Shown: positions 34,797-38,753 of the stretch, piece by piece | Numbering within the stretch: position 1 is the first letter of the stretch | Layout: the number at the start of each line of letters is the position of its first letter | Notes under the pieces: model-generated | What the model was told of the DNA's origin: nothing | Databases searched by the model: none | What the model saw: only the letters and a program-made list of their open reading frames with translations | Translations under genes and position numbers: made by a program | From: Acidovorax sp. 69 | GTDB taxonomy: Bacteria > Pseudomonadota > Gammaproteobacteria > Burkholderiales > Burkholderiaceae_C | Direction of reading: 5' to 3' | DNA: 64,000 bases | NCBI RefSeq assembly: GCF_002797445.1 | Contig: NZ_PGEP01000001.1 | Location: forward strand, 991,001-1,055,000

Positions 34797-36281
34797 ATGA
34801 CTTTCCGCACCCCCACTGCCGCCCCTCAGCGCGCGGCGACCAGCCAGCGCATCGACGTTGCCCGTGAACTGTTGTTGACCCCCTTCGGTCTCGATGAAAG
34901 CCACCTGGCCCGTGCCCTGGCCGAGATCCGCGCTCACCAGGTGGACGACGCTGACCTGTACTTCCAGTACACGCGCAGTGAGGGCTGGAGTTTGGAGGAG
35001 GGCATCGTCAAGACGGGCTCGTTCAGCATCGACCAGGGCGTGGGTGTGCGGGCGGTCAGTGGCGAGAAGACGGCCTTTGCATATTCGGACGACATCTCCG
35101 AGGCCTCGCTCCTGGATGCTGCCCGCACTGTGCGTTCCATTTCGGTGGCAGCGCAAGCTGGGAAAGTACGAGTAGCTCCTAGAAAAATAGCGGTGAGTCG
35201 CAGTCTTTATCCTGGTGTGGACCCGATCGCCTCGCTGGACAGCACGGCGAAGGTGGCACTCCTGGAGCGGCTGGAACAACGCGCCCGCGCCAAGGATCCG
35301 CGCGTGGCGCAGGTCATGGCCGGCCTGGCCAGCGAGTACGACGTGGTGCTGGTGGCCCGGGCTGACGGCACGCTGGCGGCCGATGTGCGTCCGCTGGTGC
35401 GCCTGTCGGTCACGGTGATCGCTGAGCAAAACGGCCGTCGCGAGATGGGCTCGGCGGGTGGCGGTGGCCGCTTTGGCCTGGCCTATTTCGACGACGAGCA
35501 AATGGGGCAATATGTGGACGAGGCGGTGAATGCCGCCTTGGTCAACCTTGAGTCGCGCCCAGCCCCGGCTGGTGAAATGACGGTGGTGCTGGGCTCGGGC
35601 TGGCCCGGCATCTTGTTGCACGAGGCCATTGGCCACGGGCTGGAAGGTGACTTCAACCGCAAGGGCTCCAGTGCTTTTAGCGGCCGTATCGGCCAGCGGG
35701 TTGCGGCCAAGGGCGTCACGGTGCTGGACGATGGCACCATCGCAGACCGCCGGGGCTCTTTGAATGTGGACGATGAAGGCCATGCCACCCAACGCAACGT
35801 GCTGATCGAGGACGGCATCTTGAAGGGTTACATCCAGGATTCGCTCAACGCGCGCCTGATGGGTGTGCCCCCCACCGGCAACGGCCGGCGCGAAAGTTAT
35901 GCCCATATCCCCATGCCACGCATGACCAACACGTACATGCTGGGTGGCGACAAGGATCCGCAGGAGATCATCGCCAGCATCAAGAAGGGGTTGTACGCCT
36001 CCAACTTCGGTGGTGGGCAGGTGGACATTACTTCGGGCAAGTTCGTGTTTTCGGCCAGCGAGGCCTATTGGGTCGAAAACGGCAAGATTCAGTACCCCGT
36101 CAAGGGCGCGACCATCATCGGCAGTGGTCCTGAATCGCTCAAAAAGGTGACCCTGATCGGCAATGACATGCGCCTCGATAGTGGCGTGGGAACCTGTGGC
36201 AAAGAAGGCCAGAGCGTGCCCGTGGGCGTGGGCCAGCCCACGTTGCGCATCGAGGGGCTGACGGTGGGCGGAACGGCCTGA
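34797..36281 (+). CDS. tldD: Metalloprotease TldD
   Basis: TldD is the catalytic subunit of the TldD/TldE (PmbA) protease, which degrades unfolded peptides and processes modified peptides. The 494-residue product has the zinc motif HEAIGH with His275, Glu276 and His279, followed by GLEGDFNRKGSSAFSGRIGQ. The C-terminal region has VDITSGKFVFSASEAYWVENG and the cysteine segment GVGTCGKEGQSVPVGVG. The segment VRVAPRKIAVSRS (about 35170-35210) has AT-rich codons (gtagctcctagaaaaatagc) and matches the dispersed hairpin element. It may be an in-frame insertion. Confidence 0.96.
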   Translation: MTFRTPTAAPQRAATSQRIDVARELLLTPFGLDESHLARALAEIRAHQVDDADLYFQYTRSEGWSLEEGIVKTGSFSIDQGVGVRAVSGEKTAFAYSDDISEASLLDAARTVRSISVAAQAGKVRVAPRKIAVSRSLYPGVDPIASLDSTAKVALLERLEQRARAKDPRVAQVMAGLASEYDVVLVARADGTLAADVRPLVRLSVTVIAEQNGRREMGSAGGGGRFGLAYFDDEQMGQYVDEAVNAALVNLESRPAPAGEMTVVLGSGWPGILLHEAIGHGLEGDFNRKGSSAFSGRIGQRVAAKGVTVLDDGTIADRRGSLNVDDEGHATQRNVLIEDGILKGYIQDSLNARLMGVPPTGNGRRESYAHIPMPRMTNTYMLGGDKDPQEIIASIKKGLYASNFGGGQVDITSGKFVFSASEAYWVENGKIQYPVKGATIIGSGPESLKKVTLIGNDMRLDSGVGTCGKEGQSVPVGVGQPTLRIEGLTVGGTA

Positions 36282-36398
36282 ACAGGACGCTCTGGACCGC
36301 TCGGAGGTCCCCATGTGTTGCGCGCCCCCACCAACTGCGTTTTGTGGTGGGTACAAAGCTCTCCACAGGCCTGCAGGCGGCGCAAAATGGGAGGCACC

Positions 36399-36938
36399 AT
36401 GCCCGCCGCCACGCGCCCCAGTCAACTGCTGACACTCCAGTCTTTTGGGGATATCAGCCGGTTTCTGCGCGAAGGTGTGGCGGACGAAGACTCCCGCCAG
36501 TTGCGCGACAGTCTGGGGGCTTTGTCGACGCAGATCGACGATGCGGTCCGCGCTCGCCGTACCAGCACTGACACCACGGATATCACGCGCCGCGTTGTCA
36601 CCCTGTCGCACTGCGCGCGTGAGCATCAGCTGTTCCTTACCGGCCTGGGTTCTGCCTGGCATGCTCTGTATGAATTCGGCGCCTACCAACGCGCGTTGCG
36701 GGAGCTGCGTACCGCGATCGCAGACTGGCTGCAGATGCTGGAGCGCCGCAGCACCAAGGAAAGTGCCTGTTTCGATCAGTTCGAACTTCTGGCGTGGCGC
36801 ACGCTGGGCGAGGCACTTTTGTTGGTCGATATGTACGAGCACCAGAGCGATCCCCAGAGTGACCTGCAGGATGCGCCACCGCGCAAGGTGTCCGCATTGC
36901 AGCGCGCGCGCGCCTGGCTGAAGCGGTGGAGCCGCTGA
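36399..36938 (+). CDS. Conserved hypothetical protein, helical
   Basis: This 179-residue protein is not recognised. The ATG at 36399 is preceded by gggagg, which decides the start. The sequence is strongly helical with many Arg, Leu and Ala (DSRQLRDSLGALSTQIDDAV, then AYQRALRELRTAIADWLQML). It has no signal peptide or membrane helix. It lies about 100 bases after tldD and just before the attenuator of the DAHP synthase gene. It may be cytosolic and form coiled structure. No function is proposed. Confidence 0.62.
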   Translation: MPAATRPSQLLTLQSFGDISRFLREGVADEDSRQLRDSLGALSTQIDDAVRARRTSTDTTDITRRVVTLSHCAREHQLFLTGLGSAWHALYEFGAYQRALRELRTAIADWLQMLERRSTKESACFDQFELLAWRTLGEALLLVDMYEHQSDPQSDLQDAPPRKVSALQRARAWLKRWSR

Positions 36939-37039
36939 AGTTGAGGGGCAAAAGGCGGGCGGTAACCCACCGTTGTGTCGTGCAATCACAACATCTTGGG
37001 GTTGTGGCAGTGGCGTACAGCTGTGCTACATTGGTTGCC

Positions 37040-37096
37040 ATGCAAGTTCGCAGCGCGTTTTATTTTTGGTTTTTTATCTCGGTCCCCGGCGGATGA
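37040..37096 (+). CDS. Aromatic-rich leader peptide of the DAHP synthase attenuator
   Basis: An 18-codon reading frame, MQVRSAFYFWFFISVPGG, ends at TGA 37094-37096. Six consecutive codons (37058-37075) specify Phe-Tyr-Phe-Trp-Phe-Phe, a run very unlikely by chance and just what a leader peptide sensing aromatic aminoacyl-tRNA would have. It stands 129 bases before the start of a gene of the aromatic pathway and is followed by a terminator hairpin with a competing pairing. There is no clear ribosome site upstream. An extended -10-like TGcTACATT at 37024-37032 could start the RNA almost at the ATG, making it leaderless; this is a guess. Confidence 0.75.
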   Translation: MQVRSAFYFWFFISVPGG

Positions 37097-37170
37097 GAGG
37101 AAAACGCGCAAGCACACACACCTCCCCATACCAACCGCCGACGCTGCAAAGCCCGGCGGTTTTTTGTTTT
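37084..37170 (+). promoter_or_regulatory. Transcription attenuator region: antiterminator and terminator arms
   Basis: The sequence cggcgg at 37087-37092, at the end of the leader peptide frame, can pair with ccgccg at 37135-37140, the 5' arm of the terminator. A ribosome stalled on the aromatic codons would leave cggcgg free, so the antiterminator forms. A ribosome reaching the stop codon would cover it, so the terminator forms. This is the logic of the classical trp and phe attenuators. Confidence 0.7.
37133..37170 (+). terminator. Attenuator terminator hairpin before the DAHP synthase gene
   Basis: The arms aaccgccg (37133-37140) and cggcggtt (37154-37161) pair perfectly over 8 bases with a 13-base loop. 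They are followed by ttttgtttt. It lies inside the leader, 55 bases before the coding start, so it would act as a regulated stop rather than the end of an operon. Confidence 0.85.
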
Positions 37171-37225
37171 CTGCCCTCCCGTTTTTCTTCATCCACCACA
37201 ACTTCTACTCCACGAGGAAGCAACC

Positions 37226-38347
37226 ATGACGGTCTCCAACACCCCCACCAGCGAAGCCTGGTACCGCAGCGTCGAAAAAACAAGCCAAACCGACGACGAA
37301 CGTATCAAGGACATCACTGTGTTGCCTCCTCCCGAGCATCTGATCCGCTTTTTCCCCATCGGCGGCACGCCGGTCGAAACGCTGATTACCCAGACCCGCA
37401 AGAACATCCACAACATCATGGCAGGCAAGGATGACCGCTTGCTGGTGGTCATCGGCCCCTGCTCCATCCACGATCCAGCCGCCGCCGTTGAGTACGCGCG
37501 TCGCCTCATGGCCGCGCGCACACAGTACGCCGACACTTTGGAAATCGTGATGCGCGTGTACTTCGAAAAGCCACGCACCACGGTGGGCTGGAAGGGTCTC
37601 ATCAATGACCCCTACCTCGATGAAAGCTACCGCATCGACGAAGGCCTGCGCATTGCGCGCCAGCTGCTCATCGAGATCAACCGCTTGGGCATGCCCGCCG
37701 GCAGCGAGTTCCTCGACGTGATTTCGCCCCAGTACATCGGCGACCTCATCAGCTGGGGCGCGATTGGTGCCCGCACCACGGAGAGCCAGGTGCACCGCGA
37801 ACTGGCCTCGGGTATCTCGGCGCCAATCGGCTTCAAGAACGGCACTGATGGCAACATCCGTATCGCCACCGATGCGATTCAGTCGGCGAGCCGGGGCCAC
37901 CACTTTCTGTCGGTGCACAAGAACGGCCAGGTCGCCATCGTCAACACCAAGGGCAACAAGGACTGCCACGTCATCTTGCGTGGTGGCAAAACGCCCAATT
38001 ACGACGCCGCCAGTGTCGCGGCCGCCTGCAAAGACCTTGAAGCCGCCAAATTGCCCGCCACGCTGATGGTGGATTGCAGCCACGCCAACAGCAGCAAGCA
38101 GCACGAAAAGCAGCTCGAAGTTGCCCGCGACATTGCGACCCAGCTCGCAGGCGGTTCGCGCAGCGTGTTTGGTCTCATGATCGAAAGCCACCTCGCGGCA
38201 GGTGCCCAGAAATTCACGCCCGGCAAGGACCAATCGTCCGCGCTCGAATACGGCAAGAGCATCACCGATGCGTGCCTGGGCTGGGATGATTCGCTGCAGG
38301 CACTGGCAGAACTGTCCGACGCTGTCAAAGCGCGCCGCGCGCGCTGA
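37226..38347 (+). CDS. aroG: 3-deoxy-7-phosphoheptulonate (DAHP) synthase, class I
   Basis: This enzyme joins phosphoenolpyruvate and erythrose 4-phosphate in the first step of aromatic amino acid synthesis. The 373-residue product is of the AroF/G/H type: RLLVVIGPCSIHDPAAAVEYA, YFEKPRTTVGWKGLINDPYLD, QYIGDLISWGAIGARTTESQVHRELASG, the metal-ligand region MVDCSHANSSK and RSVFGLMIESHLAAG. The start at 37226 follows gaggaag. The upstream leader has an aromatic-rich peptide and a terminator, so expression is probably controlled by attenuation. Which end product inhibits the enzyme cannot be told from sequence alone, and the exact symbol (aroF, aroG or aroH) is uncertain. Confidence 0.94.
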   Translation: MTVSNTPTSEAWYRSVEKTSQTDDERIKDITVLPPPEHLIRFFPIGGTPVETLITQTRKNIHNIMAGKDDRLLVVIGPCSIHDPAAAVEYARRLMAARTQYADTLEIVMRVYFEKPRTTVGWKGLINDPYLDESYRIDEGLRIARQLLIEINRLGMPAGSEFLDVISPQYIGDLISWGAIGARTTESQVHRELASGISAPIGFKNGTDGNIRIATDAIQSASRGHHFLSVHKNGQVAIVNTKGNKDCHVILRGGKTPNYDAASVAAACKDLEAAKLPATLMVDCSHANSSKQHEKQLEVARDIATQLAGGSRSVFGLMIESHLAAGAQKFTPGKDQSSALEYGKSITDACLGWDDSLQALAELSDAVKARRAR

Positions 38348-38377: not shown

Positions 38378-38410
38378 GGCCTGTGGACTGCACATTTCTG
38401 TGCAGTTACA
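38378..38410 (+). other. Stem-loop after the DAHP synthase gene
   Basis: The arms cctgtggactgcaca (38378-38392) and tgtgcagttacagg (38397-38410) form 8 perfect pairs next to a 4-base loop, then a bulge and 5 more pairs. There is no T-run, so it is not a standard terminator. It lies 32 bases before the next gene and may end or process the upstream transcript. Confidence 0.5.
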
Positions 38411-38441
38411 GGCGTGGATATCAGAAGAAAGGCGAACCATC

Positions 38442-38753
38442 ATGCACAGCGAAGTGTCGGTCAGATTGACTGGGGATCAGGAGTTTCGTTTTGACCTGGC
38501 GGGAGCGGAGCCCATGGGCAACGAGGCCGGGCGACGTTGGCTGGACGAGCAGTTCATCTCGCTGGACTGCGAACCTCTGCGTGCCAGTGGCAAGGTGCTG
38601 TTGGCGGACAAGGTGCTCACTGTGGCACGCGCTGCCGGGGCATCGCTGCTGGCGGACCCTGCCTGGTCGAGCGACTTTGCGCGTGCTGCCAGCGCGGCTT
38701 TGGTCAAGCCCATCGTCAGGGTGGACGTGCCGGGAATGGCGGTCACGTTCTGA
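38442..38753 (+). CDS. Conserved hypothetical small protein
   Basis: This 103-residue protein is not recognised. From ATG 38442 it reads as a compact alpha/beta protein: SVRLTGDQEFRFDLAG, then RRWLDEQFISLD and KVLTVARAAGASLLADPAW. It ends VRVDVPGMAVTF. It has no signal or membrane segment. A purine-rich site (gaagaaaggcg) precedes the start. It lies between the DAHP synthase gene and the end of the convergent mpl gene. Similar small genes next to mpl or aroG are common in Comamonadaceae, but I know of no function. Confidence 0.65.
   Translation: MHSEVSVRLTGDQEFRFDLAGAEPMGNEAGRRWLDEQFISLDCEPLRASGKVLLADKVLTVARAAGASLLADPAWSSDFARAASAALVKPIVRVDVPGMAVTF

Follow-up and report, generated by a model that had tools for sequence, protein, structure and literature searches.

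The element described here offers a concrete, family-wide answer to the question of how Betaproteobacteria control DAHP synthase (3-deoxy-7-phosphoheptulonate synthase), the first enzyme of aromatic amino acid synthesis. In Escherichia coli the enzyme is controlled through TyrR and TrpR; in the window, that is, the whole 64-kb stretch of the Acidovorax sp. 69 genome that was analyzed, a DAHP synthase gene is preceded by a short aromatic reading frame and a terminator, and the question is what these parts do there. The reading favored here, to which a probability of roughly 0.88 is given, is that of a leader-peptide attenuator through which the availability of charged Phe-, Tyr-, and Trp-tRNA governs transcription of the DAHP synthase gene. 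Classical attenuation through aromatic codons had been proposed in a first-pass annotation of this DNA, and both the sequence parts and their conservation support it, the response to Phe, Tyr, and Trp being a predicted component.

Leader, terminator, and gene in the window

All the features discussed lie on the forward strand. The regulated gene (37226-38347) encodes a protein of 373 aa that matches TIGR00034 with 532.8 bits (cut-off 173.2) and also PF00793, and a Shine-Dalgarno-like GAGGA stands before it at 37214-37218. Two hallmarks of an attenuator are found upstream: a leader in which codons for the products of the pathway are clustered, and a terminator between the leader frame and the structural gene. 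The leader peptide frame has 18 codons (37040-37096; ATG at 37040, TGA at 37094-37096; peptide MQVRSAFYFWFFISVPGG) and contains the control codons as the run F Y F W F F at 37058-37075. The intrinsic terminator (37133-37165), recognized in the sequence and in the fold, consists of a hairpin (37133-37161) with the arms AACCGCCG (37133-37140) and CGGCGGTT (37154-37161), and of a U-run at 37160-37165. Between the aromatic run and the stop, the sequence CGGCGG (37087-37092) is complementary to CCGCCG at 37135-37140. The frame with its six consecutive aromatic codons, the hairpin with its T-run, and this complementarity had all been pointed out in the first-pass annotation, and their coordinates proved exact to the base.

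In a forced fold the complementarity can be extended into a longer antiterminator, in which AUG (37093-37095) pairs with CAU (37127-37129), and GAGG (37097-37100) with CCUC (37121-37124). The 5′ arm, CGGCGG AUG A GAGG (37087-37100), is the one addressed by the pairing tests below; the 3′ arm, CCUC..CAU.....CCGCCG (37121-37140), has its CCGCCG in common with the terminator. The minimum free energy fold contains in addition a competing, protector-like helix between region 1, GCGCGUUUU (37053-37061), and its partner AAAACGCGC (37101-37109), which can form without a ribosome. The fold stability of the leader as a whole is unremarkable (z -1.48).

Read in both orientations, the 64-kb window yields a single short ORF (8-45 aa) in which at least six of 8 residues are aromatic, namely the leader. 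By the same criterion there are 79 ORFs in 80 related loci, 1.10 Mb with both strands counted, and all but one of them are leader frames (78, plus 1 other frame); the aromatic frame before DAHP synthase is not a product of chance. The genome encodes a second DAHP synthase, 55% identical to the first, without such a leader. As to the surroundings, a 207-aa frame (36315-36938), itself preceded by TldD (34797-36281), lies just 5′ of the leader and matches nothing at E 0.001, either in Pfam (searched with the entire frame) or in NCBIfam (searched with a shorter piece from 36387); a 117-aa frame 3′ of the DAHP synthase gene (38400-38753) likewise has no match in Pfam or, for a shorter piece, in NCBIfam.

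Conservation within and beyond Comamonadaceae

In Comamonadaceae, 108 of 111 DAHP synthase loci are preceded by an aromatic leader frame (4 aromatics in 8). The loci comprise 80 from a named collection of relatives (Acidovorax, Variovorax, Polaromonas, Comamonas, Hydrogenophaga, Curvibacter, Ramlibacter, and others) and a further 31 from genome searches. The three exceptions are the same-genome paralog (L002) and two truncated contigs, whose ends lie 31 and 2 nt upstream of the gene. A covariance model built from 63 sequences (R1) has one strong match per genome in 60 of 60 Comamonadaceae genomes, at least 6 of which supplied sequences to the model and match by construction. Wherever the gene place was listed, the match lies on the same strand as DAHP synthase and 25-97 nt before it (35/35), and the matches that were fetched are also upstream of DAHP synthase (20/20), so that 35 + 20 of the 60 matches are covered. 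Extra matches elsewhere in these genomes, at E 0.007-0.08, look like chance. The interpretation had been staked on the conservation of the aromatic codons and the helices in relatives, and it survived this test, to which the other families and the pairing data described below also contributed.

The 101 distinct sequences from this family share a rigid layout, with 124-142 nt from the ATG to the U-run in all of them and a CCGCC/GGCGG terminator in 63/63 representatives. Phe, Tyr, and Trp are all present in 100 of the 101 leaders, and the order YFWF is kept in 92, which is stricter than composition alone demands. An alignment of the leader across the family had been suggested as the way to see whether its parts are conserved and covary: the first part of this expectation is borne out by the aromatic run and the two arms, while the arms do not covary (for the antiterminator, 77 of 500 shuffles reach the observed value), and covariation in the terminator is marginal (10 of 500). 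Both arms are nearly invariant in Comamonadaceae, which explains the lack of covariation there; the informative variation is that between families.

The start of the leader is also conserved. An extended -10 box, TGCTACATT (37024-37032), of the family type TGnTACATT, lies 7 nt before the ATG in the window; it is recognized by its conservation, and its promoter activity is putative, a simple promoter scan having reported 0 sites. The motif TG.TA[TCA]A[TG]T is found 5-9 nt before the ATG in 99 of the 101 distinct leaders after start correction, and the two remaining leaders carry TGCTAGAGT in its place. Given the usual spacing from a -10 box, transcription should start at or within 2 nt of the ATG. 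Shine-Dalgarno-like 4-mers precede none of the 101 leader ATGs (as counted before five start corrections), compared with 89/101 DAHP synthase starts. The leader is thus probably leaderless in Comamonadaceae; in the other families, where TANNNT occurs at the right distance in 20/43 elements and Shine-Dalgarno-like words in 4/43, leaderlessness is partly supported.

Outside Comamonadaceae, the leader (5 aromatics in 8, within the 400 nt examined upstream) was found in 48 of 170 DAHP synthase loci, 150 from other families of the order and 20 from the class outside the order, paralogs included. Its distribution is concentrated by family: within the order it is present in f3 (4/4), f22 (6/6), f9 (5/6), f12 (5/6), and f7 (5/7), and further in f4 (4/6), f19 (3/4), f10 (3/6), f43 (3/6), and f31 (3/7). 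No leader was found in 18 families of Burkholderiales with 1-7 loci each (f2, f5, f6, f13, f14, f15, f17, f18, f20, f21, f23, f24, f25, f32, f42, f44, f46, and f50), and the element is therefore not universal in the order. Among the 20 class loci outside the order, 19 are without a leader. In a class-wide search beyond the order the element was confirmed, with leader and terminator upstream of DAHP synthase, only in two f60 genomes (L304/L305; G667/G531), which suggests either joint transfer of gene and switch or an older origin. Four weak matches from the class search had no DAHP synthase in the stretch fetched.

The order of the aromatic residues is free between families (FYFYFYGF, YFFWFWY, and FFYYFYFF are examples), and Trp is missing in several lineages. 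The CCGCC/GGCGG terminator, in turn, follows the leader in 44 of the 48 loci outside Comamonadaceae and in 107 of the 111 elements examined overall. The four without a terminator were left out of the pairing tests: L233 (f9), and L210, L240, and L230, leader candidates from f27 and f38 that look like chance. L189, in which the word is altered, was left out as well, leaving 106 elements, 63 from Comamonadaceae and 43 from other families.

Pairing, spacing, and the proposed switch

Of these 106 elements, 100 have exactly GGCGG as the word that follows the aromatic run, and 6 differ from it by one base. The word is translated as Gly-Gly in 56 elements from Comamonadaceae and 5 from other families, as x-Ala-x in 6 and 33, and as Arg-Arg in 1 and 5, respectively; a word that is kept although it is read in three frames must be held at the RNA level. 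The peptide hardly accounts for such a pattern, which is consistent with pairing to the CCGCC of the terminator. The flanking positions change together: the nucleotide preceding the word and the one following CCGCC form C-G in 55 elements, U-A in 18, and U-G in 8, and are unpaired in 25 (n=106), U going with A in 18/30 and with G in 8/75, and the 3′ arm of the terminator mostly follows this co-change.

When the partners were re-dealt among the 106 elements, none of 5000 reshuffles gave arm duplexes as strong as the cognate ones, and the same was true of the second helix (0/5000), whose duplexes include GAGA with UCUC and GAAA with UUUC. With one element per family (n=15) the swap test is weak, borderline for the arm (230/5000) and not significant for the second helix (915/5000), so relatedness contributes to the pairing signal. 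Region 1 and region 2 gave 0/5000 with all 106 elements, 1 within Comamonadaceae, and 9 within the other families. Composition shuffles lend moderate support, the family means being below 0.5 in 12/15 families for the second helix and in 10/15 for region 1 with region 2. The elements thus have what is expected of an attenuator, an exclusive antiterminator that shares an arm with the terminator and changes together with it, but the co-change is weak with one element per family and absent within Comamonadaceae.

These data also bear on the possibility that the leader is an arrest peptide, in which free aromatic amino acids or another ligand would stall the ribosome through the nascent chain, as Trp does with TnaC. 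The retention of YFWF in most Comamonadaceae leaders, tighter than codon counting needs, speaks for a role of the peptide itself; however, the run is rearranged between families, where Trp is lost or G, S, A, and H are taken in, the stretch behind it keeps its RNA sequence whichever of the three frames it is read in, and ligand-induced arrest at DAHP synthase would act in the opposite sense, with an end product turning the gene on. An arrest peptide is therefore considered improbable.

The spacing of the parts points to attenuation as well. In 106/106 elements the word is separated from the last aromatic codon by 8-17 nt. A ribosome that has this codon in its A site is expected to shield some 9-10 nt beyond it; the word would then be just about free during a stall and hidden once the ribosome advances. 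The control codons are thus placed so that stalling would free the antiterminator arm. In folds of the RNA ahead of the stalled ribosome, before the 3′ arm of the terminator is included, the probability of pairing between the word and CCGCC exceeds 0.5 in 104/106 elements, compared with 31/106 without a ribosome; with the ribosome at the stop codon it does so in 0/106, by construction, since the RNA behind the ribosome was masked. In some elements the stop codon comes as many as 26 nt after the word, and a ribosome positioned there may leave the word uncovered. Once the terminator is complete, the antiterminator rises above 0.5 in just 10/97 stalled elements, and it costs a mean of 4.2 kcal/mol; the terminator is usually favored at equilibrium even with a stalled ribosome, and the switch must consequently be kinetic.

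This equilibrium advantage of the terminator could be taken to mean that the hairpin simply ends an upstream unit, or acts as a fixed partial terminator, the aromatic frame being a by-product of a U-rich stretch. The stretch is indeed U-rich, and Phe is mostly encoded by UUU (288 of 435 codons in the leaders, 66%, compared with 140 of 844 in the genes behind, 17%), as Tyr is more often by UAU (38% in the leaders and 16% in the DAHP synthase genes behind). A by-product would nevertheless leave unexplained that codons for Phe, Tyr, and Trp (UGG) alike stay in frame, that the frame is placed between a near -10 box and the terminator, and that the distance from the run to GGCGG is so constrained, which makes this explanation even less probable than peptide arrest. 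For an attenuator, the bias toward UUU may reflect either slow (rare) codons or the need for an unstructured stretch.

From the sequence we infer the transcription start, the translation and stalling, the kinetic race, and the three-amino-acid response of the attenuator as follows. RNA polymerase would initiate no more than 2 nt away from the leader ATG, and a ribosome would load on the leaderless RNA; the kept frame and the codon bias are indirect signs that the leader is translated. With charged aromatic tRNAs plentiful, the ribosome would reach the stop, covering or passing GGCGG, so that the terminator would form and an RNA of about 127 nt be released. With one aromatic tRNA scarce, it would halt among the aromatic codons, its leading edge not quite reaching GGCGG, and the freed word, together with AUG and GAGG, could pair with the newly made CCGCC before the 3′ arm of the terminator emerges, allowing readthrough into the gene. 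The same layout predicts a leaderless terminated RNA of about 127 nt that might chiefly act in trans, as a small RNA or a small leaderless mRNA like rnTrpL of Sinorhizobium meliloti (a precedent taken from the part of PMC7298713 that concerns it), with attenuation secondary, but the pattern of varied and kept parts fits a cis switch, and this alternative has a negligible share of the probability.

Regulatory setting and known systems

The whole genome of Acidovorax sp. 69 contains no match to the Trp repressor (PF01371), control searches being positive, and two matches to the TyrR-type HTH (PF18024), both under the cut-off. The attenuator is therefore likely to be the main transcriptional control of the gene and not an extra layer, and the earlier suggestion that it may represent a scheme different from TyrR/TrpR control in E. 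coli gains ground from these searches. According to the relevant part of a regulon reconstruction, many Gammaproteobacteria have conserved TyrR and TrpR, which other classes lack (PMC5343134). A wider proposition, which is put forward as somewhat better than an even bet, is that a leaderless three-way sensor takes the place of TyrR/TrpR as the transcriptional control of DAHP synthase throughout Comamonadaceae and in many Burkholderiales, that running short of any one of the three amino acids would open the first committed step of the shikimate pathway, and that lineages retune the sensor through their Trp and Tyr codons. Phe, Tyr, and Trp codons packed close to the edge of the ribosome footprint are what gives rise to the three-way reading.

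The E. coli trpL and pheL attenuators differ from the present element in reading one amino acid each and in standing before branch operons rather than DAHP synthase. Regulatory codons and an alternative antiterminator and terminator are common to all of them (PMC11802643, in its passage on these leaders). A close counterpart is aroR, before aroF of Corynebacterium glutamicum, where, in the portions of the two reports that deal with it, ribosome stalling at a Phe-Tyr-Phe leader raises transcription (PMC11802643, PMC4046766). Compared by description, both leaders have consecutive aromatic codons before a DAHP synthase gene, Phe-Tyr-Phe in aroR from Actinobacteria, and six aromatic codons including Trp in the window, from Burkholderiales. 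As far as that account of aroR goes, it responds to Phe, and Tyr supply is without effect despite the Tyr codon (PMC11802643); the amino acids sensed cannot therefore be read off the codons.

The uORFC-13-1 motif upstream of aroF, with 24 representatives, only in Acholeplasma and environmental sequences (PMC8632094, in the section on this motif), resembles the element in that a DAHP synthase gene is preceded by a terminator and a predicted uORF containing one or more Phe codons, attenuation likewise being a prediction there; it differs in its predicted ribosome binding site and in that the same section describes no Tyr/Trp run. The rnTrpL RNA of S. meliloti also begins with the leader ATG and acts by attenuation without repression of transcription, but it is restricted to Trp and trpE(G), belongs to Alphaproteobacteria, and has a reported start, where that of the window leader is predicted (PMC7298713, in the same part as above). 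Rfam gave 0 matches at gathering score in the window; near the leader, at E up to 10, STnc310, a PreQ1 riboswitch (13.2 bits compared with 39), and sR52 appeared, each on the opposite strand and well short of its gathering score. Among the literature matches listed there is no DAHP synthase attenuator in Burkholderiales, none with Phe, Tyr, and Trp codons together, and none that is leaderless at this gene, although an earlier description is possible. A putative attenuator noted in the pertinent passage for Bordetella parapertussis concerns a different place, the gyrA-serC-pheA-tyrA cluster (PMC1173090), and in the searched text of Naville and Gautheret (PMC2965389) aroF, aroG, and aroH are absent, the sole match being a passage on transposons.

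Attenuation before DAHP synthase is thus already known from aroR; new, among the matches listed, is the three-amino-acid form in Burkholderiales, probably leaderless. The mechanism is classical, and the element closes a gap that concerns a large part of a bacterial order and can be tested with one reporter. It also offers a means of de-repressing the production of aromatics in these bacteria, and the varied aromatic orders in a fixed RNA frame provide a ready series for establishing which codon positions the attenuator reads.
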